Shown here piece after piece: positions 29,282-46,295 of a DNA stretch of 64,000 bases. Source of the DNA: Rhodoplanes sp. Z2-YC6860 (GTDB lineage: Bacteria; Pseudomonadota; Alphaproteobacteria; Rhizobiales; Xanthobacteraceae); the NCBI RefSeq assembly GCF_001579845.1, contig NZ_CP007440.1, positions 744,001 through 808,000 of the forward strand, given 5' to 3'. The position numbers and the translations under genes were made by a program. The notes beneath the pieces were generated by a model. That model was not told the DNA's origin. It was given only the letters and a program-made list of their open reading frames with translations, and made no database searches. Numbering within the stretch: position 1 is the first letter of the stretch; each line of letters opens with the position of its first letter.

Positions 29282-29541
29282 CAATGGTACGTAAAATGCA
29301 TTGCTTTTACCAAAATGACTTTCGAATAGGCACACAGGGTTGCACTGTCGAACAGCGCCGACAAGCTGATGTGCTTGGGCTCGGCAGTTGGGGCGATCAG
29401 ACGCATATCTCACGAGCGCTGGCACACTTCCCGCAACTCGCAAAGTGAGATAGTGATTTCGCCGCAATGCACCGCGGAAGAGAGAACTCGACCGCTGCTG
29501 GAATACGAATACGAGCGTCCGCGCTGCGTGACGCGGGAGAA

Positions 29542-30522
29542 ATGATGGGACTTCCTCGCCGCCGACTACTGCAATTGGCAGCGGGCGCTGCAGCGTCGCT
29601 GACAATACCTCGCACAGCCTCAGCACAATCCTATCCCAGCCGAACGGTGCGGATTCTCGTCGGCTTTCCGGCGGGTGGGACCACCGATATTGCGGCGCGC
29701 CTCGTCGCCCAGGCGCTGTCGGAACGATTGGGCCAGCAGTTCATCGTCGAGAACCGCCCCGGAGCCAGCACCAATATCGCGACCGAGGCCGTCGTCAGGT
29801 CGCAACCGGACGGCTACACGCTGCTCGCGGCGAGCACCTCGAACACTGTCAACGCGTCGCTCGATCTCAAGCTCAATTTCAATTTCATGCGCGACATCGT
29901 GATGGTCGCCGGCATGGTCAGGTCGCCGTTGGTGCTCGAGGTGCATCCATCGGTTCCGGTCCAAACCGTCAGCGAATTGATCGCCTACGCCAAGGCCGAT
30001 CCGGGCGCTCTCAGCATGGCGTCGTTTGGCACCGGCACCAGCTCTCATGTGACCGGAGAATTGTTCAAGATGATGAGCGGCGTGGACATGCCACATGTGC
30101 CGTATCGCGGCTCGGCGCCGCTGGTCACCGATCTCATCGCGGGCCAGGTGCACTGTGCATTCGACAATCTCCCGGCATCGATCGAACAGATTCGGGCCGG
30201 CAGGCTGCGGGCGCTGGCGGTGTCGACCGCCACGCGGGACGCGGCGCTTCCGAACATTCCGACGGTCGGCGAAACCCTTCCGTCGTTCGAAGCGAGCGCC
30301 TGGATTGCGCTCGGCGCGCCGAGAGGCACGCCGCCGGATATCGTCGAAACTCTCAATCGCGAGATCAATGCCGCGCTGTCCGATCCGAGGTTGCAGGAAA
30401 GGGCGGCGGCGCTCGGTGCCACCGTGCTGCGAGGTTCGCCGGCCGACTTCGCCAAGCTGATCGCCGATGAGACCGAGAAGTGGGCGAAGGTGATCAAGTT
30501 CGCAGGCATCAAGGCCGAGTGA
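29542..30522 (+). CDS. Bug/TctC-family substrate-binding protein
   Basis: About 326 residues. The start at 29542 (MMGLPRRRLLQLAAGAAASL) has GGGAGAA upstream and gives a Tat-like signal peptide. After cleavage near ASAQS the family start YPSRTVRILVGFPAGGTTDI follows, then QFIVENRPGASTN and DGYTLLAAS. These are periplasmic binding proteins of tripartite tricarboxylate transporters, which bind small carboxylates. No TctA/TctB membrane genes are near, so it is an orphan receptor. The Tat-like rather than Sec signal is somewhat unusual for the family. Confidence 0.88.
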   Translation: MMGLPRRRLLQLAAGAAASLTIPRTASAQSYPSRTVRILVGFPAGGTTDIAARLVAQALSERLGQQFIVENRPGASTNIATEAVVRSQPDGYTLLAASTSNTVNASLDLKLNFNFMRDIVMVAGMVRSPLVLEVHPSVPVQTVSELIAYAKADPGALSMASFGTGTSSHVTGELFKMMSGVDMPHVPYRGSAPLVTDLIAGQVHCAFDNLPASIEQIRAGRLRALAVSTATRDAALPNIPTVGETLPSFEASAWIALGAPRGTPPDIVETLNREINAALSDPRLQERAAALGATVLRGSPADFAKLIADETEKWAKVIKFAGIKAE

Positions 30523-30631: not shown

Positions 30632-31585
30632 TCACTTGACGCTGATATGGGCCTTCTCGACGACGCTGCTCCAGCGTTCGGTGTCCGCATTGATGAAGCT
30701 GGCGAACTGTTGCGGCGTATTCGGCGCCGCCACGTCGTAGCCCGCGGCGTGGAGCTGGTCCTTCAGCGCCGGATCGGCGATGCCGCGCCGGATCGCTGCG
30801 TTGAGCTTACCCGTGATGGTGGCCGGCGTGCCGGCCGGCGCGACGATGCCGTTCCAGCCGATCACCTCGAAGCCGTCGAGGCCTTGCGACGCAATGGTCG
30901 GCAGACTGGGCACGAGGGATGTCGTCTTGAGTGTCGCAACGCCAAGCCCGCGCACGGTGCCGCCGGTGATCTGCGCCTGCGCGGTCGTCGCGATCGAGAA
31001 CATCATCTGCACATTGCCGGCGATCACGGCGTTCAGCGCCGAATTGGCCTCACGGTACGGCACGTGGACGATGTTGACGCCGGCCATGGCCTTGAACAGT
31101 TCGCCGCCGAGATGCGGCGGCGTACCGATTCCGGATGACGCATAGTTCAGCTGACCGGGCTTGGACTTGGCCAGTGCGATCAGCTCCTGGACGGATTTCG
31201 CCGGCACCGACGGATGCACCACCAGCACGAAGGGCGACGTGCTCATCTGCCCGACCGCGACGAAATCCTTGCGCAGGTCGTATTGCGAGGTCTTCAGCGC
31301 GGCGTTGATGGTGTAGGAGGCGGTGGCGAGCAGCAGGTTGTAGCCGTCGGGCGGCGCCGTCGCGATGGTCTGGGCGGCGATCGCTCCGCCCGCACCGGTG
31401 CGGGGCTCGATCACGATCTGCTGGCCAAGCTCCTTGGCCAGCATCGGCGCGTAGATGCGCGCGACCACATCCGGTCCCGGTCCGACCACCACGCGAATGA
31501 CGCGGGTAGGATAGTCTTCAGCAAAAGCCGCCCCGCCGAAGGCGAGCAGCACCGCCGTGATACCAACCATCGACTTGCACATCAT
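30632..31585 (-). CDS. Bug/TctC-family substrate-binding protein
   Basis: About 317 residues from ATG 31585, preceded by GAGGTG; a GTG at 31594 is also open. A Sec signal peptide ends near AAFAED, then YPTRVIRVVVGPGPDVVARI and IEPRTGAGGAIAAQTI give the family fold. The usual PGG/S loop after the first strand reads VGPGPDV here, slightly different from the commoner FPAGG. It is followed on the same strand by no membrane component. Upstream lie two SMP-30-like genes on the same strand with short gaps, so the three probably form an operon. A sugar acid or lactone-derived acid is a reasonable ligand guess. Confidence 0.87.
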   Translation of the reverse strand: MMCKSMVGITAVLLAFGGAAFAEDYPTRVIRVVVGPGPDVVARIYAPMLAKELGQQIVIEPRTGAGGAIAAQTIATAPPDGYNLLLATASYTINAALKTSQYDLRKDFVAVGQMSTSPFVLVVHPSVPAKSVQELIALAKSKPGQLNYASSGIGTPPHLGGELFKAMAGVNIVHVPYREANSALNAVIAGNVQMMFSIATTAQAQITGGTVRGLGVATLKTTSLVPSLPTIASQGLDGFEVIGWNGIVAPAGTPATITGKLNAAIRRGIADPALKDQLHAAGYDVAAPNTPQQFASFINADTERWSSVVEKAHISVK

Positions 31586-31609
31586 GCGACGCACCTCGTC
31601 GTTCGAGCA

Positions 31610-32497
31610 TCAGGACGTCATCACGGCGCGCAACAGCTGGCCGCCGCCCGTGCTGACGTAGATCATGTCGAGCGCGGCGCCAGCCACGCAGCACTTGTTC
31701 GGCAGATCGGCCGGGATTGCATGTGTCTCGATCAGAGCGCCGCTCGGCGCGAAGCGATGGACGAGGGGGCCCGGGCCGCTCCTTTGCCAGCCGCCGACCG
31801 CGATGAGGTCGCCGTTGCGATCGAGGCACATGCCTTCGATGCCGCGATGTGGCCCGCGATGGTCACTGCCGAAGGTGTGCAGCACGATCGGATGATCCAG
31901 TGTGCCGTCGTCGCGGATCGGATAGGCGCGCAGCTCGCGCCGTTCGGCGGGCGAGGGCCCGCCGTCCGCGACATAAAGTGTCTTCTGATCCGGCGACAAC
32001 AGCACCGCGCGCGGATTGACGGTGTCGAACGTCATCCGCTCCGCGACCCAGGCGCGCCGGTCGTTGCGGTAAAGCCTCAGCACCGAGCAGTGATCGAGAA
32101 ACGGAAAGATCGCAGGCCCGAACGGAATGATCGGATGGCGCGGATCGGTGAAGTAGATGCGGTTGTTGCGGTCGATCACCAGATCGCTGGGCTGGTTGTG
32201 ATACTTGCCGTCGAGCAGCGCATCGACCGCGACCGTGCGGCCGTCCGGCGTGAACTGCACGAGACGTCGGCCGCCCTCCTGCGCGCCAAAAATCTCGCCG
32301 CCCGGCCCGAGCGCCAAACCGTTGACGCGGTTGGCGTAGCGGCGGAATTCGGTGACCTCCTTGTTGCGGTGGTCGACCCACAGCAAACGGCCCTCATCGA
32401 TCACGCTCAGCAGCACCCGGCCGCCATTCGGGTCCCAAATGACGCCGCCAGCCGGGCCTTCAAACGGTCCCGCAACGAGCTCGAATTTCCATGCCAT
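31610..32497 (-). CDS. SMP-30/gluconolactonase-like protein
   Basis: 295 residues, six-bladed propeller of the SMP-30/gluconolactonase/LRE family, which hydrolyses sugar lactones or related esters with a metal ion. Visible elements are FEGPAGGVIWDPNGGRVLLS, NGLALGPGGEIFGAQ, NQPSDLVIDRNNRIYFTDPR and AVLLSPDQKTLYVADGG. The ribosome site AGGAGCG overlaps the stop codon of the upstream paralogue, so the two are co-translated. No signal peptide. The catalytic range cannot be named further. Confidence 0.85.
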   Translation of the reverse strand: MAWKFELVAGPFEGPAGGVIWDPNGGRVLLSVIDEGRLLWVDHRNKEVTEFRRYANRVNGLALGPGGEIFGAQEGGRRLVQFTPDGRTVAVDALLDGKYHNQPSDLVIDRNNRIYFTDPRHPIIPFGPAIFPFLDHCSVLRLYRNDRRAWVAERMTFDTVNPRAVLLSPDQKTLYVADGGPSPAERRELRAYPIRDDGTLDHPIVLHTFGSDHRGPHRGIEGMCLDRNGDLIAVGGWQRSGPGPLVHRFAPSGALIETHAIPADLPNKCCVAGAALDMIYVSTGGGQLLRAVMTS

Positions 32498-32506
32498 CGC
32501 TCGCTC

Positions 32507-33400
32507 CTACCAGACCGGGACGCCGGGGATTTGCAGCCGGGTTCGGAACACGGCGTGATAGGTTGTCATGTAGAGCGAGCGCCAATCGTCATCGCCCCAG
32601 GCGATGTTGGTGGTGTGCCCGCCCGGAATGAGAAGACGTCCGAGCAGCTTGCCGCGCGGGTCCATGACGTGCACGCCGCCCGGGCCGGTGCAATAAACGT
32701 TGCCCTCCTGGTCGCACTTCATCCCGTCGGCGACGCCGGCCTCGCTGCCGGTGAGCTGATGAAACAGCCGGCCGTTGCCGACGCTGCCATCGGGCAAAAC
32801 GTCAAAGGCGCGGATGTGCGCCATCCTGGTGTCGTTGACGTAGAGAATCTTTTCATCAGGGCTGAAGCACAGGCCGTTCGGATAGACGGTGTCCGGCACG
32901 GTGAGCTCGACCTTGCCCTGCGGTGTCAGCCGGTACACCGCCTGGATGTCGAGATGGCGCTGCATGTCTTCGCCGACCATGCCGGGGATCACCAGCCCGC
33001 CGGCGGAGTCGGTCCAATAGACCGAGCCGTCGGAGCGCACGACGATGTCGTTCGGGCTGTTGAATTTCTTGTCCTGCCAGTGCGACGAGATGGTGGTGAA
33101 AGCGCCGTCCGGCTCGATGCGCCAGATCGTGCGCTTCGACCAGCCGGCAATGACCAGCCGGCCCTGCCGGTCGAACGTCATGCCGTTGGCATGGCTCGAC
33201 GGATGGACGAGCACCGATTTTCCGACACCTGGAATCCACTGATAGATCGTATCGCCGATGATATCGACCCACAGGAACCGCCCTTTGCGGTGGTCCCACA
33301 CCGGGCCTTCGCCGAAATAGGTGCCGTCGGCGATCTGATCGAAGGGCGGATCGGAGCCGACGATACGGTCGAAGCCAGCCGCGACGCGGTCGATGTCCAT
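32507..33400 (-). CDS. SMP-30/gluconolactonase-like protein
   Basis: 297 residues, paralogue of the next gene. Family elements are TYFGEGPVWDHRKGRFLWVD (first metal ligand Glu), HANGMTFDRQGRLVIAG, FNSPNDIVVRSDGSVYWTD (the Asn ligand) and YPNGLCFSPDEKILYVNDTR (the Asp ligand). All expected metal-binding positions are present. It likely hydrolyses an aldonolactone in the cytoplasm. It is the first gene of the apparent SMP-30/SMP-30/Bug operon. Confidence 0.88.
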   Translation of the reverse strand: MDIDRVAAGFDRIVGSDPPFDQIADGTYFGEGPVWDHRKGRFLWVDIIGDTIYQWIPGVGKSVLVHPSSHANGMTFDRQGRLVIAGWSKRTIWRIEPDGAFTTISSHWQDKKFNSPNDIVVRSDGSVYWTDSAGGLVIPGMVGEDMQRHLDIQAVYRLTPQGKVELTVPDTVYPNGLCFSPDEKILYVNDTRMAHIRAFDVLPDGSVGNGRLFHQLTGSEAGVADGMKCDQEGNVYCTGPGGVHVMDPRGKLLGRLLIPGGHTTNIAWGDDDWRSLYMTTYHAVFRTRLQIPGVPVW

Positions 33401-33587: not shown

Positions 33588-34130
33588 ATGCCGCAGTTGA
33601 GCCCCCATCCCGACTTCTCCTCCAGAGCCGTGGCTCAGATCGAGGTGCAGATTGCGCAGCCGTGTGTGGACAGCCTGCTGCTGTCGTACATCGTGACCGG
33701 CAAGATCGGCGACATCCGGATGCCGCCGGTCTCCACGGCGGAACGCAGCGACGAACTCTGGCGTCACACCTGCTTCGAGTTGTTTGTCAGGGAATCGTCG
33801 GGATCGGATTATTACGAATTCAACTTCGCGCCCTCGAGGAAGTGGGCGGCTTATCGATTCAATAGCTATCGGAGCGGCATGTCTGTGGCGACCGAGATCG
33901 ACGAAGCGCCGATCAATGTGAGCACGGGCCCGGATCGCTACAGGTTACAGGCCACGCTGCCCATCCATCGGTTGTCGCGAAAGGCTCCATGGCATCTGGG
34001 CCTGTCTGCGGTGATCGAGGACAATGCAGGACAAATGTCATACTGGGCTCTGGCGCATCCGCCCGGAAAGCCCGATTTTCATCACATGGACTGCTTTGGC
34101 CATGAGTTTTCGCCTGCGGTGTCGGCATGA
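33588..34130 (+). CDS. DOMON-like domain protein
   Basis: 180 residues, no signal peptide. LWRHTCFELFVRESSGSDYY, then EFNFAPSRKWAAYRFNSYR and HLGLSAVIEDNAGQMSYWAL, fit the DOMON-like beta-sandwich group that databases connect with cell-wall sugar genes. DOMON folds bind heme or sugars. The stop overlaps the namZ start by four bases (ATGA), so the two are coupled. I infer a sugar- or muropeptide-binding helper for the adjacent hydrolase. Confidence 0.72.
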   Translation: MPQLSPHPDFSSRAVAQIEVQIAQPCVDSLLLSYIVTGKIGDIRMPPVSTAERSDELWRHTCFELFVRESSGSDYYEFNFAPSRKWAAYRFNSYRSGMSVATEIDEAPINVSTGPDRYRLQATLPIHRLSRKAPWHLGLSAVIEDNAGQMSYWALAHPPGKPDFHHMDCFGHEFSPAVSA

Positions 34131-35329
34131 AATTCGGAATCGATAGACTCATCGCGGAGCCGGCGCTGCGCGCACCATTGGCCGGCAGGCGCGTGGCGCT
34201 GCTCGCGCATCCGGCGTCCGTCACTGAAAACCTGACGCATTCGCTCGACGCGCTCGCCGCGTGTGGCGATCTGAAGCTCAGCGCGGCTTTCGGACCGCAG
34301 CACGGTCTGCGCGGCGACAAGCAGGACAACATGGTCGAGTCGCCGGACTTCGAAGATCCGGTGCATCACATTCCGGTCTTCAGTCTCTACGGCGAGGTGC
34401 GCAAGCCGACCGACAAGATGATGGGATCGTTCGACGTGATCCTCATCGACCTGCAGGACCTGGGCTGCCGCATCTATACGTTCATCACGACGCTTCTCTA
34501 TGTCCTCGAAGCGGCGGCGCGCCATCGCAAGTCGGTCTGGGTGCTGGATCGGCCGAATCCGGCTGGCCGTCCCATCGAAGGGCTTAAGCTTCGCAGCGGC
34601 TGGGAGAGCTTTGTCGGTGCGGGCCCGATGCCGATGCGTCACGGGCTGACGCTGGGCGAGCTTGGCCTGTGGTTCGTCGAGACCTTCAAGCTCGACGTCG
34701 AATATCGCGTGATCGAGATGCAAGGCTGGCAGCCGGACGCCGCGCCCGGTTTCGGCTGGCCGCTCGGCGAGCGCATCTGGATCAATCCGAGCCCCAACGC
34801 GCCGAATCTGTCGATGGCGCGGGCCTATGCGGGCACGGTGATGCTCGAAGGCACGACGCTGTCGGAGGGCCGCGGCACGACGCGGCCGCTCGAACTGTTC
34901 GGCGCGCCGGATATCGATGCGCGAGCGGTGATGAAGAAGATGGTGGAGCTCGCGCCGCGCTGGCTGGAAGGCTGCCGGTTGCGCGAGTGCTGGTTCGAGC
35001 CGACGTTCCACAAGCATGTCGGCAAGCTTTGCCACGGCGTTCAGATTCATCCGGAAGGGCCCGGCTATGATCACGGCATCTTCAAGCCGTGGCGCATCCA
35101 GGCGCTCGCCTTCAAGGCGATCCGGGCGTTGTATCCGCAATATCCACTATGGCGCGACTTCGCCTATGAATACGAGCACGGCAAGCTCGCCATCGACGTG
35201 ATCAATGGCGGCCTGCTGCTGCGTGAGTGGGTCGACGATCCTTCAGCGAGTCCGCACGACCTCGATGCGCTCACGCTGCCGGACGAGCAGGCGTGGTCGA
35301 GCGAGCGGAAGCCTCATTTGCGCTATTGA
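34127..35329 (+). CDS. namZ: Exo-beta-N-acetylmuramidase NamZ-like (DUF1343, GH171)
   Basis: 400 residues. The DUF1343 signatures are all visible: AAFGPQHGLRGDKQDNM near residue 50, IPVFSLYGEVRKPTDKM, VILIDLQDLGCRIYTFITTL near residue 105, and LDRPNPAGRPIEG. DUF1343 was shown in Bacillus and Tannerella relatives to be an exo-N-acetylmuramidase that removes terminal MurNAc from wall fragments. Here there is no signal peptide, so it would act in the cytoplasm on imported muropeptide glycans, or be exported by another route. Its end overlaps the convergent nagA by seven bases. Confidence 0.85.
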   Translation: MKFGIDRLIAEPALRAPLAGRRVALLAHPASVTENLTHSLDALAACGDLKLSAAFGPQHGLRGDKQDNMVESPDFEDPVHHIPVFSLYGEVRKPTDKMMGSFDVILIDLQDLGCRIYTFITTLLYVLEAAARHRKSVWVLDRPNPAGRPIEGLKLRSGWESFVGAGPMPMRHGLTLGELGLWFVETFKLDVEYRVIEMQGWQPDAAPGFGWPLGERIWINPSPNAPNLSMARAYAGTVMLEGTTLSEGRGTTRPLELFGAPDIDARAVMKKMVELAPRWLEGCRLRECWFEPTFHKHVGKLCHGVQIHPEGPGYDHGIFKPWRIQALAFKAIRALYPQYPLWRDFAYEYEHGKLAIDVINGGLLLREWVDDPSASPHDLDALTLPDEQAWSSERKPHLRY

Positions 35330-36504
35330 ACGTCTTCCCGCTGACCGTCGACCCAGGTCGCAATGACTTTGAGTTCCGCGTTCAACGCGACCAGATCGGC
35401 GCGTGCGCCTGCCGTCAGCGTGCCGCGCTCACGATCGAGGCCGAGAAACCGCGCGGGCGTCAGCGAGGCGGCGCGCAGCGCATCCTCCAGCGGAAGCTCC
35501 GCGAGCTTCACTGCGTTGCGCACCGCCGAGGCCATATCCAGGTGCGCGCCGGCGAGTGTTCCGCCCGCGGTGGCGAGCCGTCCTTTGACAAGCGTGACCG
35601 TCTGGCCCAGCAGACTAAAGCGCTGCAGCGACGAGCCCACGCTTGGCATGGCGTCTGTCACGAGAGCGATGCCGTCGCGCTTCGCCGCGAAGGCGAGCCG
35701 GACGGAGATCGGATCGACATGGATGCCGTCCACGATCAGCCCGGCGGTCAGCCGCTCCTCGGTGAGCGCGGTGCCGATGATGCCCGGCGACCGTCCGCTG
35801 AACGGCGGCATGGCATTGAACAGATGCGTGACGCCGCTCGCGCCATCGGCCACCGCGCGCATGACCACGTCCGCAGGCGCTTCGCTATGGCCGATCGAAA
35901 CGCGGACGCCGTTTGTGGTCAGGGTCTGAACGAATCCGGCCGGCACACATTCCGGTGCCAGCGTCACCAACGATGTCCCGGCGCCGGAAAGCTCGCACAG
36001 CTGTTCGACATCGCCATCGCGCGGTTCCGCGATCCGGTCGGGCGGATGCACGCCGGGGCGTTTGGGACTGATGAAGGGGCCTTCGATGTGCAGACCCAGG
36101 ATGCCATCATGGCCCGCGATCGATCGCGCAGCCGCGATCGCGTCAGCCATCCGTTCGCGCGTGTCGGTGATCAGTGTCGGAAGACATCCGGTGGTGCCGA
36201 AGCGGCGATGCGCGCGCGCGATGGCGCGCATGCCGTCCGCGGTCGGTTGATCGTTGAGGAGCACGCCGCCGCCGCCATTGACCTGCAGATCGATGAACCC
36301 TGGAGCAACGATGGTGCCGGCGGGCAGATTCTGTTGCGGCCAGTCGCCCGGAACTTCACCTGAGCGCCGAACGCCTGCGACGAGCCCGTCCCGGATCAGC
36401 ACCGCGGCATCGTCGTGCCATCGCGTGCCGTCAAAAATCCGGCGGGCGAGCAGGGCGTGCTGCGGAGGCGTTCCAGGATGATTCGGGTCCAGGCTCATCG
36501 ACAT
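35323..36504 (-). CDS. nagA: N-acetylglucosamine-6-phosphate deacetylase
   Basis: 393 residues. It converts GlcNAc-6-phosphate to glucosamine-6-phosphate and acetate in the cytoplasm. Motifs: PGFIDLQVNGGGGVLLND near residue 55, LHIEGPFISPKRPGVHPP with the metal-binding Glu, THLFNAMPPFSGRSPGI and the catalytic Asp in LVTDAMPSVGS. The start at 36504 is followed by a second in-frame ATG two codons later. It diverges from the murA-like gene, with a small palindrome directly upstream. It performs the step after MurQ in MurNAc use. Confidence 0.92.
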   Translation of the reverse strand: MSMSLDPNHPGTPPQHALLARRIFDGTRWHDDAAVLIRDGLVAGVRRSGEVPGDWPQQNLPAGTIVAPGFIDLQVNGGGGVLLNDQPTADGMRAIARAHRRFGTTGCLPTLITDTRERMADAIAAARSIAGHDGILGLHIEGPFISPKRPGVHPPDRIAEPRDGDVEQLCELSGAGTSLVTLAPECVPAGFVQTLTTNGVRVSIGHSEAPADVVMRAVADGASGVTHLFNAMPPFSGRSPGIIGTALTEERLTAGLIVDGIHVDPISVRLAFAAKRDGIALVTDAMPSVGSSLQRFSLLGQTVTLVKGRLATAGGTLAGAHLDMASAVRNAVKLAELPLEDALRAASLTPARFLGLDRERGTLTAGARADLVALNAELKVIATWVDGQREDVQ

Positions 36505-36509
36505 TCATT

Positions 36510-36524
36510 GCCAGTTGCACTGGC
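36510..36524. promoter_or_regulatory. Perfect palindrome in the nagA/murA divergent promoter region
   Basis: GCCAGTTGCACTGGC is a perfect six-base inverted repeat around TGC, five bases upstream of the nagA start. It may be a repressor operator, or a hairpin in the nagA leader that covers the ribosome site. No regulator gene lies in the locus. Confidence 0.4.
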
Positions 36525-36645
36525 GGTGCGACGAATCCAATTTAAGTTAAGGGGCGCGGAAGTCCCAGCGGAATGATCGCACGTGATGCCGTAAAATGCG
36601 GCGCGCTATTCCGAGAATCGGACGCGCGCGACCAAGGTGAGAAAA

Positions 36646-37908
36646 ATGGACCGGATGATCATCCGAGGCGGCAGCCGCATCGAAGGCTCGGTCCAGGTTT
36701 GCGGCGCCAAGAACGCGGCGCTGCCGCAGATCGCGGCCGCCTTGCTCAGTGCCGAGCGGCTGGAATTGGGCAATGTGCCCGAGGTTTCCGACATCGACAC
36801 CATGCTGCTGTTGATGCGGGAGCTTGGCGTCGCGGCGAACCGGGCGCCGGGGCATCGACTGGTGCTCGACGCGGGCGGCGCCCGCAACACCCAGGCACCC
36901 TATGACATCGTGCGCAAGATGCGCGCCAGCATTCTGGTGCTGGCCCCGTTGCTCGCCCGCTTCGGCTCGGCGCGCGTCTCGCAGCCCGGCGGCTGCGCCA
37001 TCGGCGCGCGGCCGATCGACCTGCATCTGAAGGCGTTGGAGGCGCTGGGCGCTCAGGTCGACATGGAGGCCGGTTACATCCACGCGCGAACCAGCGGCGA
37101 CGGCTTGCGCGGCGGCCGCATCGTGCTGTCGTCGCCGTCCGTGGGCGCGAGCGAGACCGCCTTGATGGCGGCGGTGCTGGCGCGTGGCGAAAGCGAAATC
37201 CTGAACGCCGGCCGCGACCCGGAAATCTCCGATCTCGCGGCTTGCCTCGTCGCGATGGGAGCGCGCATCGAAGGCGCGGGCACCCATCGGATGCTGGTGC
37301 AGGGCGTGCAGGCGCTGCATCAGGCGCGTCACGATCTGATCACCGACCGCATCGAGGCGGGCAGCTATGCCATCGCTGCCGCGATCACCGGCGGTCATCT
37401 CGAGATTCTGGGCGCTCATCTCGAGCATCTCGGGTCGGTCGGCGCCGCGCTGGAAAGCGCTGGCGTGCAGATCTGGCCGACCGACCGCGGCCTGATGGTG
37501 GTTCGCTCCGGACCGCTGCAGGCCATCGACATCTCGACCGAGCCCTATCCCGGATTTCCCACCGACCTGCAGGCGCAGTTCATGGCGCTGATGACGATTG
37601 CGCGGGGCGCTTCGGTCATCCGCGAAACCGTGTTCGAAAGCCGCTTCATGCATGTGCCCGAGCTGGGGCGGCTCGGCGCAAATATTTCGCTGCAAGGCTC
37701 GACCGCGCTGGTGCGTGGCGTCGACGGGCTGCGCGCTGCCGAGGTGATGGCGACGGATCTGCGCGCTTCGGTGTGTCTCGTTCTAGCGGCATTGGCCGCG
37801 GAAGGCGAGACCACGGTGCATCGCATCTACCATCTCGACCGCGGCTACGAACTCCTCGATCGCAAGCTCGTGCAATGTGGCGCCAACATCCAGCGGGTCG
37901 CCGGATGA
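36646..37908 (+). CDS. murA: UDP-N-acetylglucosamine 1-carboxyvinyltransferase (MurA homologue)
   Basis: 420 residues from ATG 36646, preceded by AAGGTGAG. MurA transfers enolpyruvate from PEP to UDP-GlcNAc, the first committed step of peptidoglycan synthesis and the fosfomycin target. Catalytic elements are intact: GAKNAALPQIAAALL with the Lys-Asn pair, QPGGCAIGARPIDLH with the catalytic Cys and Arg, FPTDLQAQFMALM with the active-site Asp, DLRASVCLVLAAL and the terminal IYHLDRGYELLDRKL. It overlaps the downstream kinase by four bases (ATGA), placing it in a salvage operon rather than with division genes. It may be a second MurA; whether another copy exists is not visible here. Confidence 0.9.
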   Translation: MDRMIIRGGSRIEGSVQVCGAKNAALPQIAAALLSAERLELGNVPEVSDIDTMLLLMRELGVAANRAPGHRLVLDAGGARNTQAPYDIVRKMRASILVLAPLLARFGSARVSQPGGCAIGARPIDLHLKALEALGAQVDMEAGYIHARTSGDGLRGGRIVLSSPSVGASETALMAAVLARGESEILNAGRDPEISDLAACLVAMGARIEGAGTHRMLVQGVQALHQARHDLITDRIEAGSYAIAAAITGGHLEILGAHLEHLGSVGAALESAGVQIWPTDRGLMVVRSGPLQAIDISTEPYPGFPTDLQAQFMALMTIARGASVIRETVFESRFMHVPELGRLGANISLQGSTALVRGVDGLRAAEVMATDLRASVCLVLAALAAEGETTVHRIYHLDRGYELLDRKLVQCGANIQRVAG

Positions 37909-38795
37909 CAGCCGCTGCCCAAACCGGTCCGCTGTTTGTCGGCGTTGACGGTGGAGGCACCGGCTGCCGCGCTCGCATCGAGGATGCGGACGGCAGCCTG
38001 CTCGGCACCGGTATCGCGGGTCCGGCCGCGTTGCGTCTCGGCATCGACCGCGCGCTGGCCGAAGTGGAGAAGGCCTGCCGTGCCGCGGCCGATGAAGCCG
38101 GGCTGACGTTTGAAGTTCTGAAGTCGGCCCATGCGGCCGCGGGGCTTGCCGGCGTCGGACGCAAGGGCGCTCTCGAGGAGCTGAACCAGCGGCCGCATCC
38201 GTTCCGTTCTATCGTCTACGTCAATGACGCGACAGTCGCCTGCATCGGCGCGCATGGCGCGCGCGACGGCGGTATTGTCATCGTCGGCACCGGCAGCGTC
38301 GGCTACGCGGTGATCGGCGAGCGCGAGGTGAGAGTTGGGGGCTATGGCTTTCCGATTTCGGACGAGGGCAGCGGCGCCGATCTCGGATTGCATGCGATCC
38401 GCCTGGCGCTTCGCGCTTACGACGAACGCGCGCTCGGCAGCAGCCTCACCCGCGACGTGATGGCCCGCTTCCACAACGATCCGTTCGATGCGGTGGCCTG
38501 GATGGATCGTGCAAGCGCCACCGACTACGCGACGTTTGCACCGCTGGTGATGCGGCACGCCGATAACGGCGATCCTGTCGCGCGGCGAGTCGTTCGTGAC
38601 GCGGGCGAGCAGATCGACGAACTGGTTCGGAGGTTGCTCGAATCCGGTGCGCCCCGGATCGCGCTGCTCGGCGGCCTCGCGTCGTCGATGCAGCCTTGGC
38701 TGTCGCCCGACGTGCAGCGGCGGCTGGTGCCGGTCGAGGGCGACGCGGTGGACGGCGCTTTGCACCTCGCCCGGCGTAACAGCGGGAAAGGGTGA
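37905..38795 (+). CDS. N-acetylglucosamine/N-acetylmuramic acid kinase (BadF/BcrA-type ATPase family)
   Basis: 296 residues from the ATG overlapping the murA stop. The ASKHA phosphate-binding loop LFVGVDGGGTGCRARIEDAD starts the protein. The second phosphate loop is GGIVIVGTGSVGYAVIG, and GYGFPISDEGSGADLG is the segment typical of amino-sugar kinases in this family. The enzyme phosphorylates GlcNAc or MurNAc at O6 with ATP in the cytoplasm. With NamZ upstream and MurQ downstream, MurNAc is a likely substrate, as for the MurK/NagK group. Substrate choice between the two sugars cannot be read off. Confidence 0.85.
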   Translation: MTAAAQTGPLFVGVDGGGTGCRARIEDADGSLLGTGIAGPAALRLGIDRALAEVEKACRAAADEAGLTFEVLKSAHAAAGLAGVGRKGALEELNQRPHPFRSIVYVNDATVACIGAHGARDGGIVIVGTGSVGYAVIGEREVRVGGYGFPISDEGSGADLGLHAIRLALRAYDERALGSSLTRDVMARFHNDPFDAVAWMDRASATDYATFAPLVMRHADNGDPVARRVVRDAGEQIDELVRRLLESGAPRIALLGGLASSMQPWLSPDVQRRLVPVEGDAVDGALHLARRNSGKG

Positions 38796-38802
38796 CCAGT
38801 CC

Positions 38803-39696
38803 ATGGCGACCGAGCACATCAGTCCGCGCTATGTCGATCTCGACTCTTGGTCTACGGCCGAAATGGTCGCGGCGATGTACGAGGGCCAGCTCGCGGCAGC
38901 AGCAGTGGTTCGTGCTGCGCTTCCGTCAATCGGTGCTGCCGTCGATGACGCCGTGCCGGCCCTGCAGCGTGGCGGCCGGATCGTCTATGTCGGTGCCGGC
39001 ACCTCGGGACGGATCGGCGTCCAGGACGGCACCGAGCTGACTCCCACCTACGATTGGCCTGCCGAGCGGCTGGTCTTCGCCATGGCCGGCGGCATGGAGG
39101 CGCTCATCAAGAGCGCGGAGGGCGCCGAGGACAACGAGACCGCGGGCGCACAGGCCATGGCCGACGCGAAGATCGGCGGAAACGACGTGGTCATCGGCAT
39201 CGCGGCGAGCGGCACGACACCATTTACGATCGGCGCCCTGCGCGCAGCCACTGCGGCGGGCGCGGTGACGATTGCGGTGGCCAACAATCCCGGCGCGCCT
39301 CTCTTTGAAGTGGCGCGCCATCGCGTGCTGGCCGACACCGGCGGCGAAGTGGTCGCCGGGTCCACCCGCATGAACGCCGGCACTGCGCAGAAGATCTTGC
39401 TGAACCTGATCTCGACGGCGCTGATGGTGAAGCTCGGCCGGGTCTACCGCGGGCTGATGGTCGACATGCGTGCCCGCAACGCGAAGCTGCGCCGCCGCGC
39501 AGCGGCGATTGTGATGGAGATTGTCGGTTGTACGAAGGCTGAAGCCGCGCGGTGCCTCGAGCAGACCGATGGCGACTTGAAGACGGCCATTCTGGTCGGG
39601 CTGGGATTGAACCGCGGCGATGCCTCGCGGTTGCTGCAGCAGCATAACGGCAATCTCCGATCCGCCATCAATGCGAAAACCGGCAACAATGGCTGA
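38803..39696 (+). CDS. murQ: N-acetylmuramic acid 6-phosphate etherase
   Basis: 297 residues from ATG 38803; a longer open frame upstream overlaps the kinase and is not used. MurQ splits the D-lactyl ether of MurNAc-6-phosphate, giving GlcNAc-6-phosphate and lactate. The SIS fold is seen in IVYVGAGTSGRIGVQDGTEL and IGIAASGTTPFTIGAL. The family signature is GGEVVAGSTRMNAGTAQKIL, and the acid Glu lies in SAEGAEDNETAGA. The C-terminal helical tail (EAARCLEQTDGDLKTAILVG) is also typical. It lies seven bases after the kinase. Confidence 0.94.
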   Translation: MATEHISPRYVDLDSWSTAEMVAAMYEGQLAAAAVVRAALPSIGAAVDDAVPALQRGGRIVYVGAGTSGRIGVQDGTELTPTYDWPAERLVFAMAGGMEALIKSAEGAEDNETAGAQAMADAKIGGNDVVIGIAASGTTPFTIGALRAATAAGAVTIAVANNPGAPLFEVARHRVLADTGGEVVAGSTRMNAGTAQKILLNLISTALMVKLGRVYRGLMVDMRARNAKLRRRAAAIVMEIVGCTKAEAARCLEQTDGDLKTAILVGLGLNRGDASRLLQQHNGNLRSAINAKTGNNG

Positions 39697-40714
39697 GACG
39701 CATTTTGAAAGCGCGATGGCGCGCGAGATCGCCGAAATTCCGGCAGTCGCCGGACGCCTGCTGGCGCAAACCGATGTGTTGGCCGCGATCGTCGAGCGGA
39801 TCGAGCAGCTCAAGCCTCGTGTCGTGGTGTTTTGCGGCCGCGGCAGCTCGGGCTATGTCGGCATCTATCTGCGCTATCTGTTCGAGGCGCGACTGGGGAT
39901 GCTTGCGTCTGTATCCGCGCCTTCGGTCGTGACGGCTTACGAGAGACCGCCAGACATGCGCGGTGTGCTGTTCGTCGTGATTTCGCAATCGGGTCGCAGT
40001 CCCGACCTCGTGACGGCAACGCAAGTGGCGCGCAACGTCGGTGCGTTGACGCTTGCGATCGTCAACGACGAGCAGTCGCCCGCGGCGGCGGCCGCCGAAC
40101 TCGTCCTGCCGATCGGCGCCGGACGCGAACATGCCGTGGCCGCCACCAAGACGGTCGTTTCGTCGATGATCGCGGGGGCTTGCCTTGTGGCCAAGCTGGC
40201 CCGCGACGATGAATTGACAGCGAGTCTGCGACGGATGCCGTCTCGGCTGTCGCTAGCACTCGAGTGCGATTGGTCGGCTTGGGCTGATGCGGTTGCTGGC
40301 GCGGCAGCCACCTTCGTGGTGGGCCGGGGTTATGCGTTGGGCTGCGTTCGCGAGATCGCGCTGAAGGTCTCTGAAACTTTGCGCATTCCGGCGATCGGCC
40401 ACAGCGCCGCGGAGTTGCGGCATGGTCCTTGGGCGTCGATTTCGTCTTCAACGCCGGTGCTGGTGCTGCGTCAGGATGATCGGACCGCGGCCGCCGTTGA
40501 CGGCGTGCTCCAGGATCTGGGCGACACAAAAGCCCCGGCGTTTGCGGCTGGAGGCCCGGCGGGCACGCTGCCTTGGATCGGCGACGGTAATCCTGCCTGC
40601 GACCCGATTCTGATGCTGGTGCCAGCGTATCGCGCGATTGAGCGGGCTGCGCGCAAACGGGGTTTCGATCCTGACAACCCGCCGAATTTGAGCAAGGTCA
40701 CGCGTACGTTGTGA
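39689..40714 (+). CDS. SIS-domain glucosamine-6-phosphate deaminase (NagB-II/AgaS type)
   Basis: 341 residues from ATG 39689, overlapping murQ by eight bases. Two SIS domains: FCGRGSSGYVGIYLRYLFE and VISQSGRSPDLVTATQVAR in the first, with AVAATKTVVSSM linking, and FVVGRGYALGCVREIALKVS in the second. This is the isomerase half of GlmS without the glutaminase domain, the layout of NagB-II deaminases. It would turn glucosamine-6-phosphate into fructose-6-phosphate and ammonia, closing the salvage route after NagA. An aldose-ketose isomerase of the same fold is possible. Confidence 0.85.
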   Translation: MAETHFESAMAREIAEIPAVAGRLLAQTDVLAAIVERIEQLKPRVVVFCGRGSSGYVGIYLRYLFEARLGMLASVSAPSVVTAYERPPDMRGVLFVVISQSGRSPDLVTATQVARNVGALTLAIVNDEQSPAAAAAELVLPIGAGREHAVAATKTVVSSMIAGACLVAKLARDDELTASLRRMPSRLSLALECDWSAWADAVAGAAATFVVGRGYALGCVREIALKVSETLRIPAIGHSAAELRHGPWASISSSTPVLVLRQDDRTAAAVDGVLQDLGDTKAPAFAAGGPAGTLPWIGDGNPACDPILMLVPAYRAIERAARKRGFDPDNPPNLSKVTRTL

Positions 40715-41350: not shown

Positions 41351-42271
41351 ATGCGTGTGGCCACCCTATGCGTCGCTGCCTGCTGGGTCACAAGCGCAAG
41401 CGTCAGCTCATCCGAGCCAAGGCCTCCTGTCGAACCTGCGGGCATGGCTTCGACGACAGCGTTGCCTCAAGGGTCGGAAGCGCAATCCGCTCCATCGTCC
41501 GGGAGTGATGCGTCTGCTGACACCGGTTCTCATTCGCCCGCCCAGCCAAAAAACGTGGCGCCCTCGAAGGCCGAGCTTTGTGCGACCGCGGTGCTGGTCG
41601 CACAGGCCAACAACCTGCCGGCTTCGTTTTTCACTCGGCTGATCCGGCAGGAAAGTGGTTTCAATCCGCGCGTCATAAGCTCGGCCGGAGCCCAGGGAAT
41701 TGCCCAGTTCATGCCGGGGACCGCCTCGTCTCGCGGGCTCGCAGATCCGTTCGAACCGACGGGCGCCTTGGCGGCTTCAGCCAAATATCTGGCGGAGCTC
41801 GTCGATCAATTCGGCAATCTGGGCCTCGCGGCTGCGGCTTACAACGCAGGGCCGAAGCGCGTTCAGGACTGGATCGCAAAGCGAACGAGATTGCCTGCCG
41901 AGACCCGGAACTACGTCTACAGCATCACCGGACAGTTGATCCAGGCGTGGACGGTGAGCCGCTCGCAAGCGGAGCAAATCCAGTTGGCGTCGGCCGACGG
42001 CTGTGCGGCTGTCGCGCCCGCGCTGCTTGCTCAGAACGACGGGCCGCCGGTCTCACAAAGTCCGGAAGCGACGGTTCGCTCCCGTGACCAGCGGACGAAA
42101 GCGGCTGCGTCGGAGCGTCACGGCTTGCCGAGGCCCAGTCATTTCATCGTCGGGCGGCCCGTGGCCGCAGCCATCAAGGCTGCCGAGGCGAAGGTGCTGG
42201 CAAAAGCCAAATGGCAGTCCGGAACGAGGCATGCGCGCCACGGCGTTGTTCGTGTGGCTTCTCTTCGCTAG
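41351..42271 (+). CDS. Lytic transglycosylase, SLT domain
   Basis: 306 residues. The N-terminus has a short hydrophobic stretch (MRVATLCVAACWVTSASVSS), probably a signal peptide, followed by a Ser/Pro-rich linker to about residue 70. The SLT domain follows: FFTRLIRQESGFNPRVISS with the catalytic Glu, AGAQGIAQFMPGTA, and LGLAAAAYNAGPKRVQDWI. The enzyme cuts the MurNAc-GlcNAc bond, forming anhydroMurNAc ends, in the periplasm. The C-terminal 90 residues are basic and low in structure. GAGAGGA lies about 13 bases upstream of the start. The stop codon touches the repeat element that follows. Confidence 0.87.
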   Translation: MRVATLCVAACWVTSASVSSSEPRPPVEPAGMASTTALPQGSEAQSAPSSGSDASADTGSHSPAQPKNVAPSKAELCATAVLVAQANNLPASFFTRLIRQESGFNPRVISSAGAQGIAQFMPGTASSRGLADPFEPTGALAASAKYLAELVDQFGNLGLAAAAYNAGPKRVQDWIAKRTRLPAETRNYVYSITGQLIQAWTVSRSQAEQIQLASADGCAAVAPALLAQNDGPPVSQSPEATVRSRDQRTKAAASERHGLPRPSHFIVGRPVAAAIKAAEAKVLAKAKWQSGTRHARHGVVRVASLR

Positions 42272-42674: not shown

Positions 42675-45600
42675 CTACGCGACGACGAAGTCGCCCGTAT
42701 GGACCGTGGCGCCGTTCTGCAGCTTGATGACTGCGTCGGTGGCCGAATGGTAGCCGGCAGTGCCGGCGTTGATCACGAGGTAGGTGCCCGCGTCGGTGCC
42801 GCCGTTGATCGTGACTTCGGCGGCCCCATTGGCAAGGAGCGTCACGCTATCCAAAACGTTGCCTAGGTCGGTGGCCAAGTTTCCGGTACCGGCCGTGCTC
42901 GTGGCGTTGAGACTGGTCGGCAATTGCGTGACTCCGAAGTGGTCGGTGCCCGATGTGAAGTCGGTGATCGTATCGAACGCGGAAGCGAGCGAGTCTGCCA
43001 GCGTTTTGAAAATGAAAGTGTCGGCGCCCGCTCCGCCGGTCAGCGTGTCTGCGCCAGCGCCGGCGGTGATGGTATCGGCGCCCGAGCCGGTGATGATTGT
43101 GCTGTTTCCAGACGTGGCAGTGACAGTGAGATTGCCAGTGTCGGCCGAGGCGGTGAGGTTGCCGCCTCCCAGCGTGATAGAGGCGGCCGCGCTGCCCCCG
43201 AGTGTGAGGGTATGACCGCTGGTCAGCGCCTGAGCGTTGATGGTGTTCGTCCCTGAGCCTGTCGTGATGGAGAGGCTGGCGACGTCGTCGGTGGTGACAT
43301 TCAGGTCGCCGGTGCCGTCATCGGTCAGGTTGGCTGTCAGGTGGGTGACGGTGAAGTTGTCGCCGCCGTGCAGGGTGAGGGAGTTGGTGGCCAATAGCGC
43401 CGATGCGTTGACCGAGACGGCGTCCCGGGTGGCGCCGGCCGTGCCGGTGATGGTGGTGGCACCGGAGCCGGTGGTGATCGAGATGGCGTCGGTGGTGTCG
43501 GTGTCGGCGTTGGCGGTGACGACGGTGAGCGAGCCAGTGCCGTCGTCGGTGAGAGTGCCCTGCAGGCCGGTGACGCTGAAGTCGTCGCCGCCGTGCAGCG
43601 CGAGCGTGCTGGCGGCCAGCAACGCCGCGGCGTTGATCGAGACGGTGTCCCGGGTGGCGCCTGCGGTGCCGGTGATGGTGGTGGCGCCGGAGCCGGTGGT
43701 GATCGCAATCGCGTCGGTGGTGTCGGTATCGGCGTTGGCGGTGACCACGGTGAGAGCGCCGGTGCCATCGTCGGTGAGGGTGCCCTGCAGGCCGGTGACA
43801 CTGAAGTCATCGCCGCCGTGCAGCGCCAGCGTGCTGGCGGCCAGCAAACTGGCGGCGTTGATCGAGACGGTGTCCCGGGTGGCGCCGGCGGTGCCGGTGA
43901 TGGTGGTGGCACCGGAGCCGGTGGTGATCGAGATGGTGTTGTCGGCGGTGTTGTCCGCCGTGGTCACGTTGAGCGTGCCCGACAGGCTCGTTGCCGTCAG
44001 ATCGCCCTGCAGTTGAGTGACGATGAGATTTGCCGTCCCGCTCAAGGTCAGCAGCAAGTTGTTGGCGAGCAGCGCCGCATTGATGGGCACGCCAACGGTG
44101 CCGTCCGCGACGATCGCGGATGCGCCAGCGACCGAAATCTCACCTCCACCTTGAATCGTCCCATCGAGCTTCAAGGTGGTGCCGGTTTGAAGGGTCACGG
44201 CGGTGCCGGTGTCGATCGTGACCGCATCCGTGCTGCCGTTGAGCGTCGTCGTGGTGCTGTTGCCGGTGACGTTGATTTGACCGGAGCCGGTCAGTTCGCC
44301 GCCAGCGATCGTCACGTTGGTCAAGTTCAGGGTTGCGTTAGCATCGACCTGAATATGACCTCCGGCGTCGTTCAGGGTCTCATTCGACAGCAGCAGCACC
44401 GTGCCGTTCCCGGTGACCTGAAGCGTTCCGTCACTCGAGAAGGTGCCGACATCGTGGATGCTGTTGGATGCGCCGCTCGTGACCTTGATCAGGCTATGGT
44501 TGATGAGATTGCCTGAATCGATCGTCGAATTCTGCAATTCCAGGACGGACGACATCGGCAGCGTCGGGGCGTCGATCCGAATAAGCCCCGAATTGGTGAC
44601 GGCCGTGGACATGAGCGTGATCGAGCCATCGATCACCTCCATCGTTCCGGTGTTGCTCACGTTTGCGGAAATGAACGTGATCGAACCGCCGGCCGCCTCG
44701 ATCGTTCCGGCGTTGAGGACAAGCTGGCCTGGATGCGCATTATTGCCGACGGAGAAGCTCGCGCCGCTATCGACCTTGATCGTGCCGCCGTTGTTCGACA
44801 GCGGATTTGCATCGGCGGCGTTGATTCCGAAACTGCTCGCGGCAACCTCGAGCGTGACACCGTTGTCCAGCCGCAGACTGTTAAGAGAAACGGGTGTTGA
44901 ACTCGTGACGTAAACAGTCCCGCCAGGAGTGGAGGAGACGGGGATCACCGCGTCTTCGGTCGGCAGCGGTACGAAGCTGGTGCTCCATTTCGAAGGGTCT
45001 TCCCAATTCCCGATACCGCCGTGCCACTCGACCTTACCGGTCGGATCCTGATCCAGCGTCAGCGGCAGGGAGACGACGTCGGAATTGCGCAATCCGCCCA
45101 GCCCGAGCACCGTCACGTAGACGTCCAGATGTGTCTCGGTGACACCCGAGGCGGGCGTGATCACCGTGATACCGGCCGAAAGGTCGGCCGCGGTAAACGT
45201 CAGGGTCGTGCCGGTTCGCAGCGTGGTTTCGGTTCCGACTCTGAAGCTGTATCCGGCTGGAATGTTGGAAACCGTGACCGATACAAATGTCTCGTACGTC
45301 GGGTTGGCGACGTGGGGTATGATGTTTTGCGAAAAATTCACCTCGCCGATCTGGAATCTGCTGATCGGCAGGACGGTGACAGTGGGCAGACCCGTAATGG
45401 GAAGCGGCGGTGCCCCCGCGTCCCCGGCTTTCGCCTCGACGTGATAGATGAAGGGCGGGGGAACGGGGCCGCTCTGCGGTCCGATATTGAGGAGGGCGGT
45501 GAATACGGGCAACTGGTTGAACTCGATAGAGCCGCCAGACCCCAAGCCGCCAGCCGTGCGCTGAAACAGCTGGAAGAACGGATCCTGCGACCCTCGAGAA

Positions 45601-46295
45601 TAGATGTCGAAGGCCGACTTGTATGCGCTCTGAAAGTCGAGCATTTGCGCTCGGGTGTTGGCGACAACTTCGATGCTGAAGCCCGAGCCGCGCGGGTGCA
45701 GCACAAGCGTGTGACCCGGATCGTCGACGATGAAGACCTGTGGGTTTTGACCCTTGGTGACGACTTCAAACGTGCCGTGCTGCAGATCCTTGACCGTCAC
45801 GTCGTCGAAATCGAAGATGACGATCTCTTCGCTCGCGGCGTTGGCCTCTTCCACGAGGCACAGGATGAACAGTGCGGCGAGACCGCTCGCCAGCGCAGCG
45901 ACGCCCGTTCCGCGGATAGCGGCCGAGGGGGTTTCGACCTCCAGCTGGCCTTCGCGAACCTTGCGGCCGGGAAGGAAGCCGACTTCGCCCCGGATTACCC
46001 GCACCGACGACCGGCCCGGGGCGGTTTCGGCCGGGTCGAAGGCGTCTATGGCGATAGAGGAATTCGATCCTAGATTGAACGTCGTGCCATCAACAAAAAG
46101 GATGGCCGTTGAGCCATCCTCGGCGGTTTTGATGATGTCCCCTTCGCAGACAAAGCTGCCCGTGGCGCCAGGCCACGCCAAACCGCCCCGGATCAGCTCG
46201 ACGCGTCCGGCAACGACCTGAAGTTTGCCCACCGGTTTGTCCTGCGGATCGGAAAACTGACCCCCGACAACCAGCCCGCCCTGCGTTACAGACAC
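42675..46295 (-). CDS. Giant FecR-domain/RTX repeat protein, probable type I secretion substrate
   Basis: 1206 residues. Residues about 25-135 are a FecR-like domain (KLQVVAGRVELIRGGLAWPG, FVDGTTFNLGSNSSIAIDAF, VETPSAAIRGTGVAAL). A hydrophobic segment, VAALASGLAALFILCLVEEA, comes right after. The central part is Gly/Thr/Ser-rich beta-helix-like sequence (for example GTIEAAGGSITFISANVS). Three 75-residue repeats follow (LALHGGDDFSVTGLQGTLTD). Near the end is an RTX-type calcium motif, DTITAGAGADTLTGGAGADT, and a non-cleaved C-terminal tail. The lack of an N-terminal signal peptide with RTX motifs near the C-terminus suggests type I secretion. No T1SS genes are in the window. A surface adhesin is likely. 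Confidence 0.8.
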   Translation of the reverse strand: MSVTQGGLVVGGQFSDPQDKPVGKLQVVAGRVELIRGGLAWPGATGSFVCEGDIIKTAEDGSTAILFVDGTTFNLGSNSSIAIDAFDPAETAPGRSSVRVIRGEVGFLPGRKVREGQLEVETPSAAIRGTGVAALASGLAALFILCLVEEANAASEEIVIFDFDDVTVKDLQHGTFEVVTKGQNPQVFIVDDPGHTLVLHPRGSGFSIEVVANTRAQMLDFQSAYKSAFDIYSRGSQDPFFQLFQRTAGGLGSGGSIEFNQLPVFTALLNIGPQSGPVPPPFIYHVEAKAGDAGAPPLPITGLPTVTVLPISRFQIGEVNFSQNIIPHVANPTYETFVSVTVSNIPAGYSFRVGTETTLRTGTTLTFTAADLSAGITVITPASGVTETHLDVYVTVLGLGGLRNSDVVSLPLTLDQDPTGKVEWHGGIGNWEDPSKWSTSFVPLPTEDAVIPVSSTPGGTVYVTSSTPVSLNSLRLDNGVTLEVAASSFGINAADANPLSNNGGTIKVDSGASFSVGNNAHPGQLVLNAGTIEAAGGSITFISANVSNTGTMEVIDGSITLMSTAVTNSGLIRIDAPTLPMSSVLELQNSTIDSGNLINHSLIKVTSGASNSIHDVGTFSSDGTLQVTGNGTVLLLSNETLNDAGGHIQVDANATLNLTNVTIAGGELTGSGQINVTGNSTTTTLNGSTDAVTIDTGTAVTLQTGTTLKLDGTIQGGGEISVAGASAIVADGTVGVPINAALLANNLLLTLSGTANLIVTQLQGDLTATSLSGTLNVTTADNTADNTISITTGSGATTITGTAGATRDTVSINAASLLAASTLALHGGDDFSVTGLQGTLTDDGTGALTVVTANADTDTTDAIAITTGSGATTITGTAGATRDTVSINAAALLAASTLALHGGDDFSVTGLQGTLTDDGTGSLTVVTANADTDTTDAISITTGSGATTITGTAGATRDAVSVNASALLATNSLTLHGGDNFTVTHLTANLTDDGTGDLNVTTDDVASLSITTGSGTNTINAQALTSGHTLTLGGSAAASITLGGGNLTASADTGNLTVTATSGNSTIITGSGADTITAGAGADTLTGGAGADTFIFKTLADSLASAFDTITDFTSGTDHFGVTQLPTSLNATSTAGTGNLATDLGNVLDSVTLLANGAAEVTINGGTDAGTYLVINAGTAGYHSATDAVIKLQNGATVHTGDFVVA
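43360..43940 (-). repeat. Tandem 225-base repeats inside the FecR/RTX gene
   Basis: Two nearly identical 225-base units and a third diverged one encode the 75-residue repeats. For example, GTGCTGGCGGCCAGC starts at 43606 and again at 43831, exactly 225 bases apart. The similarity at DNA level suggests recent duplication, so copy number may vary between strains. Confidence 0.85.

Follow-up and report, generated by a model that had tools for sequence, protein, structure and literature searches.

A second MurA beside an amino-sugar kinase and MurQ in a Rhodoplanes salvage locus and in other Alphaproteobacteria

We describe here a second murA gene, murA-2, in a stretch of 64,000 nucleotides (nt) of Rhodoplanes sp. 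Z2-YC6860 DNA (the window; positions 744,001 to 808,000 of NZ_CP007440.1, part of a single contig of 8,193,889 bases). MurA, the UDP-N-acetylglucosamine (UDP-GlcNAc) enolpyruvyl transferase, carries out the committed step of wall synthesis and is the target of fosfomycin. In the window, murA-2 (36646-37908, plus strand) is followed by genes for an amino-sugar kinase, for MurQ, the N-acetylmuramic acid 6-phosphate (MurNAc-6P) etherase, and for a NagB-II-type deaminase, and these four genes (36646-40714) form one tight unit headed by MurA. Judging from its relatives, MurA-2 appears to belong to an old MurA subfamily whose members are linked to a single kind of amino-sugar kinase. An earlier sequence-only reading proposed that salvaged GlcNAc is turned back into UDP-MurNAc, and this idea seems to fit best; we put at slightly better than even (about 0.55) the probability that MurA-2 helps to channel salvaged GlcNAc into UDP-MurNAc again, making up for the MurNAc that the kinase and MurQ drain away. 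The recurrence of the arrangement across several families of the class suggests that wall rebuilding is wired into salvage.

A second, seemingly intact MurA

A search of the genome with TIGR01072 (cut-off, 392.7 bits) found two genes above the cut-off, the window copy at about 531 to 532 bits and another at 544 bits; a third match, at 63 bits, lies far under it. The other gene, at C1:7303297-7304574, adjoins DUF2948 and UPF0262 and is the housekeeping murA; Ruegeria pomeroyi likewise has a murA-DUF2948 arrangement. The sequence-only reading held that the link to salvage would be incidental if the window copy were the sole murA and were expressed independently of the downstream genes; the second murA above the cut-off rules out murA-2 as the only genomic copy. 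The housekeeping MurAs of the genomes studied are like MurA-2 in equivalog family and catalytic residues, with about 51 to 57% identity to it, but align over 426 to 432 residues, compared to 415 to 421 for MurA-2, and fall outside the clade described below; in its own genome, the housekeeping gene also has another gene setting. MurA-2 as a recent duplicate of the housekeeping gene is ruled out by the 52 to 54% identity between MurA-2 and the housekeeping MurA of its own genome, together with the separate clade.

MurA-2 is a full-length MurA that keeps the active site and most of the UDP-GlcNAc pocket. The Lys-Asn pair, Cys, Asp, and Arg of the active site, which the sequence-only reading had picked out, are indeed present (K22, N23, C115, D305, and R397 in Escherichia coli numbering). 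Among 25 MurAs of the operon type defined below, K22, N23, R91, C115, R120, D305, R331, and R397 are conserved in every one; we take these positions to have the catalytic and substrate roles usually assigned to them. The remaining UDP-GlcNAc and phosphoenolpyruvate (PEP) positions that were checked are mostly kept. MurA-2 is under purifying selection, with ratios of nonsynonymous to synonymous change (dN/dS) of 0.037 to 0.175 in nine pairs, the lowest or second lowest among the compared genes in each pair; for the housekeeping MurA, the range was 0.014 to 0.120 (six pairs).

The pairing of MurA-2 with the kinase

How widely the arrangement occurs was judged from samples of 296 genomes of the family, 397 of the order, 385 of the class, and 398 of the phylum. 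There is overlap between these samples, coverage outside the family is sparse, assembly completeness varies among the genomes, and E-values are per genome; the class is taken as Alphaproteobacteria from named relatives, the MurQ of L063 being identical to that of the named Bradyrhizobiaceae contig of L017, and family f24 as Rhizobiaceae from near-identical plasmid copies (L110 against R. tropici, 96%). Within the family, MurQ matches (E of 1e-40 or better) occur in 37 of the 296 genomes, at 39 places, all of which were inspected together with whatever contig was present around them (5 to 19 kb); in 4 of the 39 (the window, L041, L042, and L043), murA is placed between nagA and the kinase. Relatives of the window MurA at 75% identity or more were found in these same 4 of the 296 family genomes, the next among the matches listed being at 57% or less. 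The order and class samples contribute 14 more genomes at 65% or more, plus one (G324) at 60%. We refer to these 19 genomes, from 12 genera and 8 families, as the operon type (18 at 65% or more, the Rhodoplanes genome included, and G324). The gene immediately after murA is the kinase in each of the 19, with -2 to 32 nt between the aligned ends. Eighteen of these loci also have a MurQ match, and in the remaining one (L115) the contig ends behind the kinase; MurQ is therefore near murA-2 wherever the contig extends far enough, though the kind of MurQ varies. Two of the genomes, G385 and G349, have the full seven-gene order of the window. Such an arrangement, recurring in other genera and families, is not chance.

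Beyond these samples, 16 records of named plasmids have murA matches at 60 to 80% identity, all from Rhizobium or Allorhizobium, and the kinase adjoins murA in all six that were inspected. A plasmid of Rhizobium tropici CIAT 899 has murA, kinase, and murQ in this order. The phylum sample (E of 1e-152 or better) returned six operon-type genomes already known and one 58% match from family f78; three other f78 members fall outside the operon clade. Many other MurAs of the class sample are 53 to 61% identical to the window MurA. Among those at 60 to 61% outside the operon type, neighbours were inspected for three (L118 over wide flanks, L100 and L101 over 1.5 kb); none has an adjoining kinase match, and all three lie outside the clade.

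In a tree of 59 MurAs (25 of the operon type, 33 further ones from the class or from named plasmids of alphaproteobacteria, and that of E. coli), the 25 operon-type sequences form one clade with support of 100/100 and a stem of 0.45 changes per column. Closest to it are f78 MurAs and L118 (support, 92/87 and 91/92) rather than the housekeeping MurAs of the same genomes. Another murA above the cut-off is present in 18 of the 19 operon-type genomes, the exception, G382, being an 84% complete assembly.

Other variation in MurA content was seen along the way. In the family MurA search, 17 of 26 genomes of genus g24 have one match only, a distant MurA (E of about 1e-70 to 1e-74), and in the other 9 there are two matches, the stronger with an E of about 1e-123 to 1e-128; three such copies group with the housekeeping MurAs. 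One f24 genome (L166, on G673 C14) has a third, very divergent MurA, with 483 bits to the model and 36% identity to the window copy.

Of the genes compared, the kinase is also the one whose history most resembles that of murA-2. Pairwise distances of MurA-2 correlate with those of the kinase at r = 0.955 (18 genomes), with those of MurQ at 0.839 (17 genomes), and with those of the housekeeping MurA at 0.65 (18 genomes); none of 2,000 permutations reached any of the three values. MurA-2 distances thus follow the kinase better than the housekeeping MurA. The window locus is 84% identical to those of G385 and G349, which belong to another family, but 75 to 76% to those of G079 and G030 of its own, and for the housekeeping MurA the order is reversed (71% versus 78 to 80%); therefore, the block has probably moved sideways. 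In the tree of kinases, one clade of 35 comprises the 26 linked to murA, that of Chelatococcus included, and 9 murA-less ones; here the presence of murA takes four changes, for which a single gain and three losses is the best reading. Seven are required on the MurQ tree, partly because the Rhizobiaceae loci, whose MurQ is of a distant kind, and Chelatococcus carry other kinds of MurQ. The tie between MurA and salvage suggested by the sequence-only reading is therefore stronger than a single locus could reveal, in the adjacent kinase of all 19 genomes, the single clade, and the shared distances.

One can envision that MurA-2 is a regulatory partner of the kinase, sensing the precursor pool through UDP-GlcNAc or UDP-MurNAc with PEP, such that MurNAc is burnt only when wall precursors are plentiful and catalysis is perhaps secondary. 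MurA and the kinase are the tightest pair tested and are direct neighbours throughout, the MurQ of the Rhizobiaceae loci is of a distant kind, and the kinase branch is long after loss of murA in two of three cases (kinase/MurQ branch ratios of 2.28 and 2.12). However, the ratio is 0.85 in the third case (L047), and where murA is present it is 0.43 to 1.28 on nine longer tips but 1.87 and 3.62 on two short inner branches; among g24 tips it runs from 0.43 to 4.04. A speed-up of the kinase after murA loss is therefore a weak signal, noisy on short branches. Full catalytic conservation also exceeds what a sensor would need, and we consider a mainly regulatory role unlikely. A hybrid of the two ideas, in which MurA-2 and the MurNAc/GlcNAc kinase would be a two-protein device that makes the UDP-MurNAc precursor, gates the kinase by sensing the pool, and decides between burning and rebuilding, is a speculation to which we likewise give little weight.

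Salvage, drain, and proposed rebuilding

We imagine that MurNAc would be supplied by NamZ or AnmK as feeders. The kinase and MurQ, by family membership, would convert it to GlcNAc-6P; NagA and NagB-II, on the same grounds, would carry this on to glucosamine 6-phosphate (GlcN-6P) and fructose 6-phosphate. Part of the GlcN-6P could then reach UDP-GlcNAc through GlmM and GlmU, an established pathway, and MurA-2 would turn UDP-GlcNAc into the precursor of UDP-MurNAc. The genome also has a TsaE-APH fusion gene (AmgK-like) before a MurU-like gene, followed by a PD-(D/E)XK nuclease gene; therefore, MurNAc probably has a MurA-independent road as well, and so two ways to go. Because the kinase and MurQ would pull MurNAc away from this seemingly encoded AmgK/MurU shunt, a MurA made from the same unit would sustain the supply of UDP-MurNAc during MurNAc breakdown.

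Parts of this picture have precedents. Gram-positive bacteria have MurA1/MurA2 paralogues and, as here, two MurAs per cell, though we know of no tie between these and a sugar kinase with MurQ; our MurA tree included no Gram-positive MurA. In Tannerella forsythia, as reported (PMC10465942), a murTKQ operon likewise joins MurQ and a MurNAc kinase, and once murK is deleted wall synthesis is the only fate of MurNAc; such a kinase can therefore drain MurNAc from wall synthesis. According to the same study, T. forsythia is without genes for making MurNAc, whereas here MurA belongs to the unit. The E. coli-type recycling route (AnmK-MurQ-NagA) is represented in the Rhodoplanes genome by MurQ and NagA, with no match for AnmK. 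The AmgK-like/MurU-like pair recalls the shunt of Pseudomonas and Caulobacter, and Caulobacter crescentus is reported to be without MurQ (PMC13046382). In the parts of the open-licence literature that we searched, we found no account of a murA within a murQ operon.

The window NamZ-family protein (34127-35329, plus strand) has both Pfam domains (NamZ_N, 240 bits; NamZ_C, 142 bits). However, it has GPQHG in place of the PEHG motif, whose Glu we take to be the proposed catalytic residue. The Gln is found in all five members of its subfamily, and the Glu in all eight relatives compared (two solved structures and six plasmid proteins, retrieved from among 29 matching records). When the alignment is inspected by eye, its N terminus is a conserved MKFGIDRL with no hydrophobic leader and no visible signal peptide. 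The subfamily is perhaps cytoplasmic with altered chemistry, and the claim that NamZ frees MurNAc is not secure. AnmK was sought in 22 genomes (the 19 of the operon type and three without murA) and matched at more than 200 bits in 16; two of the 18 matches (24 to 26 bits) were discounted as fragments. Of the 19 operon-type genomes, 10 have it on the murA contig at a distance of about 3 to 10 kb; it lies elsewhere in G079 and G518, and on another contig in G382 and G897. The four NamZ loci (the window, L103, L104, and L047) are in genomes without a genuine AnmK, and 16 of the 18 other genomes have one, with NamZ sought only in the retrieved locus stretches. NamZ and AnmK may be alternative feeders, the cases being few and related. 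Competition of MurQ with the shunt for MurNAc-6P made by AnmK was also considered and, for the Rhodoplanes genome, rejected, given that AnmK has no match there.

Several observations weigh against a return of salvaged GlcNAc to UDP-MurNAc through MurA-2. On the side of supply, the NamZ protein may lack activity, AnmK has no match in the genome, and neither a sugar nor a peptide importer was recognised in the genes beside the locus, the rest of the genome not being searched; the sequence-only reading had also noted that no importer is present. As for the shunt, MurU-like matches were obtained in 22 of 22 genomes but never reached the curated cut-off, and a control search at the same threshold matched 6 of 14 genomes, archaea among them (e.g., Sulfolobus and Methanosarcina); because of this, they are weak evidence outside the Rhodoplanes genome, where the neighbours support the match. 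An inverted repeat (GCCAGT-TGC-ACTGGC) in the nagA-murA intergenic region (36505-36645) is not conserved among the relatives compared (17 stretches). Near relatives do without the gene at this locus: murA is absent from the corresponding locus of L044, L047, and seven rows of g24, and in L045 (G063) both murA and the kinase are absent between nagA and murQ, with AnmK directly behind nagB-II. On a Chelatococcus sp. CO-6 plasmid (L156), the murA match is in two pieces, with no coding sequence listed, beside an annotated kinase gene, and murA therefore seems dispensable there. Finally, operon-type MurAs have S or G for K160 and P for V161 (E. coli numbering), in a loop that we take to bind UDP, and binding could differ.

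This last change, with the long stem of the clade, would suit a MurA-2 that has changed its job and places the enolpyruvyl group onto another acceptor. K160 is, however, also absent from 13 of the 33 other MurAs (kept in 20), most other checked UDP-GlcNAc and PEP positions are kept, and 532 bits to the murA equivalog model is far above the cut-off; we regard a changed acceptor as improbable. The loci without murA would be expected if murA-2 were an incidental neighbour, a copy unlinked to salvage. That is very unlikely, given its occurrence in 19 genomes of 8 families, in one clade, co-inherited with the kinase and with low dN/dS.

MurA-2 might instead serve gene dosage or fosfomycin tolerance, simply raising MurA capacity, and be located here because the kinase and MurQ remove MurA-independent recycling. 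Agrobacterium and Caulobacter are reported to be less sensitive to fosfomycin as a result of MurNAc recycling (PMC9790009, PMC13046382). The target Cys is kept in 25 of 25 operon-type MurAs, hence more enzyme would mean more target. The sequence-only suggestion of a second fosfomycin target holds up only to this extent, the Cys predicting a sensitive enzyme. However, the gene that always accompanies murA-2 encodes a sugar kinase and has nothing to do with drugs, and although one locus (L106) has a beta-lactamase-fold protein, such folds are also used in wall turnover. A dosage or tolerance role seems to us a long shot.

The presence of a MurA clade beside one kind of amino-sugar kinase and a MurQ across several families, and on the megaplasmids of rhizobia, would imply a coupling of salvage to new synthesis through the order of the genes, and perhaps also through contact between the proteins. 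Operon-type MurA further offers a marker of bacteria in which the MurQ route operates alongside the AmgK/MurU shunt, and a clean handle on why two MurNAc routes are kept.

The seven genes and their surroundings

All seven gene families named by the sequence-only reading are borne out by coordinates and family matches, although the first match is weak. A DOMON/CBM9-like open reading frame (ORF; 33588-34130, plus strand; CBM9_2, E of 1e-4, under the gathering score) precedes the NamZ-family gene; by eye it has no evident signal peptide, its predicted structure is of low confidence (predicted local distance difference test score, 46.7), and such a gene also lies beside namZ in L047, L103, and L104. 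The GlcNAc-6P deacetylase gene nagA (35323-36504, minus strand) matches TIGR00221 at 308 bits (cut-off, 225.65). The BadF/BadG-type amino-sugar kinase (37905-38795, plus strand), for GlcNAc and/or MurNAc, has the GlcNAc kinase NagK_SO3507 as its best model, at 260 bits, below the cut-off of 370; its solved relatives include a probable GlcNAc kinase (1zc6, 149 bits) and a MurNAc/GlcNAc kinase (8zo3, 81 bits). MurQ (38803-39696, plus strand) matches NF003915 at 360 bits (cut-off, 168), TIGR00274 at 290 bits, just below 302, and the solved 4s12 at 244 bits. The NagB-II-type SIS protein, a glucosamine 6-phosphate deaminase (39689-40714, plus strand), matches NagB_SO3506 at 236 bits, below the cut-off of 430. 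The complete route from MurNAc to fructose 6-phosphate that had been claimed is not established, with NamZ doubtful, the kinase assignable to GlcNAc and/or MurNAc, and no importer recognised in the locus.

The overlaps described earlier are present in the sequence: ATGA at DOMON/namZ and murA/kinase, and 8 bases at murQ/nagB-II; the kinase and murQ are 7 bases apart. The genes are adjacent, as the earlier description of them as packed together implied, but that wording hides two or three transcription units. Because nagA lies on the opposite (minus) strand, overlapping the convergent namZ by 7 bases and pointing away from murA across a gap of 141 bases, a single operon of all seven genes is ruled out, and DOMON-namZ is a separate gene pair. 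The catabolic unit that MurA heads is thus murA-kinase-murQ-nagB-II, to which neither the divergent nagA nor the separate DOMON-namZ belongs. No shared operator upstream of murA or the kinase was found in the 17 stretches, and promoter and terminator scans were uninformative (sigma-70, 1 found versus 1.1 in shuffles; terminators, 2 versus 5.0).

Importers and regulators do accompany the unit elsewhere. In L106, an RpiR-type regulator gene is divergent from murA-kinase-murQ, followed by SBP_bac_5, permeases (one identified by scan, one by eye), ATPases, the beta-lactamase-family protein, and AnmK at the edge. Such an SBP_bac_5/Opp-type importer inside the locus can be likened, by importer type alone, to YejBEF-YepA, a peptide-type ATP-binding cassette (ABC) importer that brings in muropeptides for peptidoglycan recycling in Rhizobiales, as reported in PMC9790009. 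ABC genes are also present in L114 and L117 (one L116 ORF scanned had no family match), Rhizobium oryzihabitans has a MurR/RpiR regulator and a sugar ABC importer beside the unit, and Chelatococcus has a GntR regulator and a dipeptide-type ABC importer at the locus.

Upstream of the locus in the window, at 2 to 4 kb, the products of 29467-30522 and 30632-31594 resemble by eye the binding proteins of tripartite tricarboxylate transporters (one of the two was scanned, with no NCBIfam match), and two SMP-30/gluconolactonase genes (31610-33400) adjoin them. Downstream of the unit lies an SLT lytic transglycosylase gene (41351-42271), for which no match was shown in the retrieved related loci that would make it a locus member. 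Beyond it, 42675-46295 on the minus strand encodes a large protein with internal repeats and, by eye, a calcium-binding-like C-terminal part.

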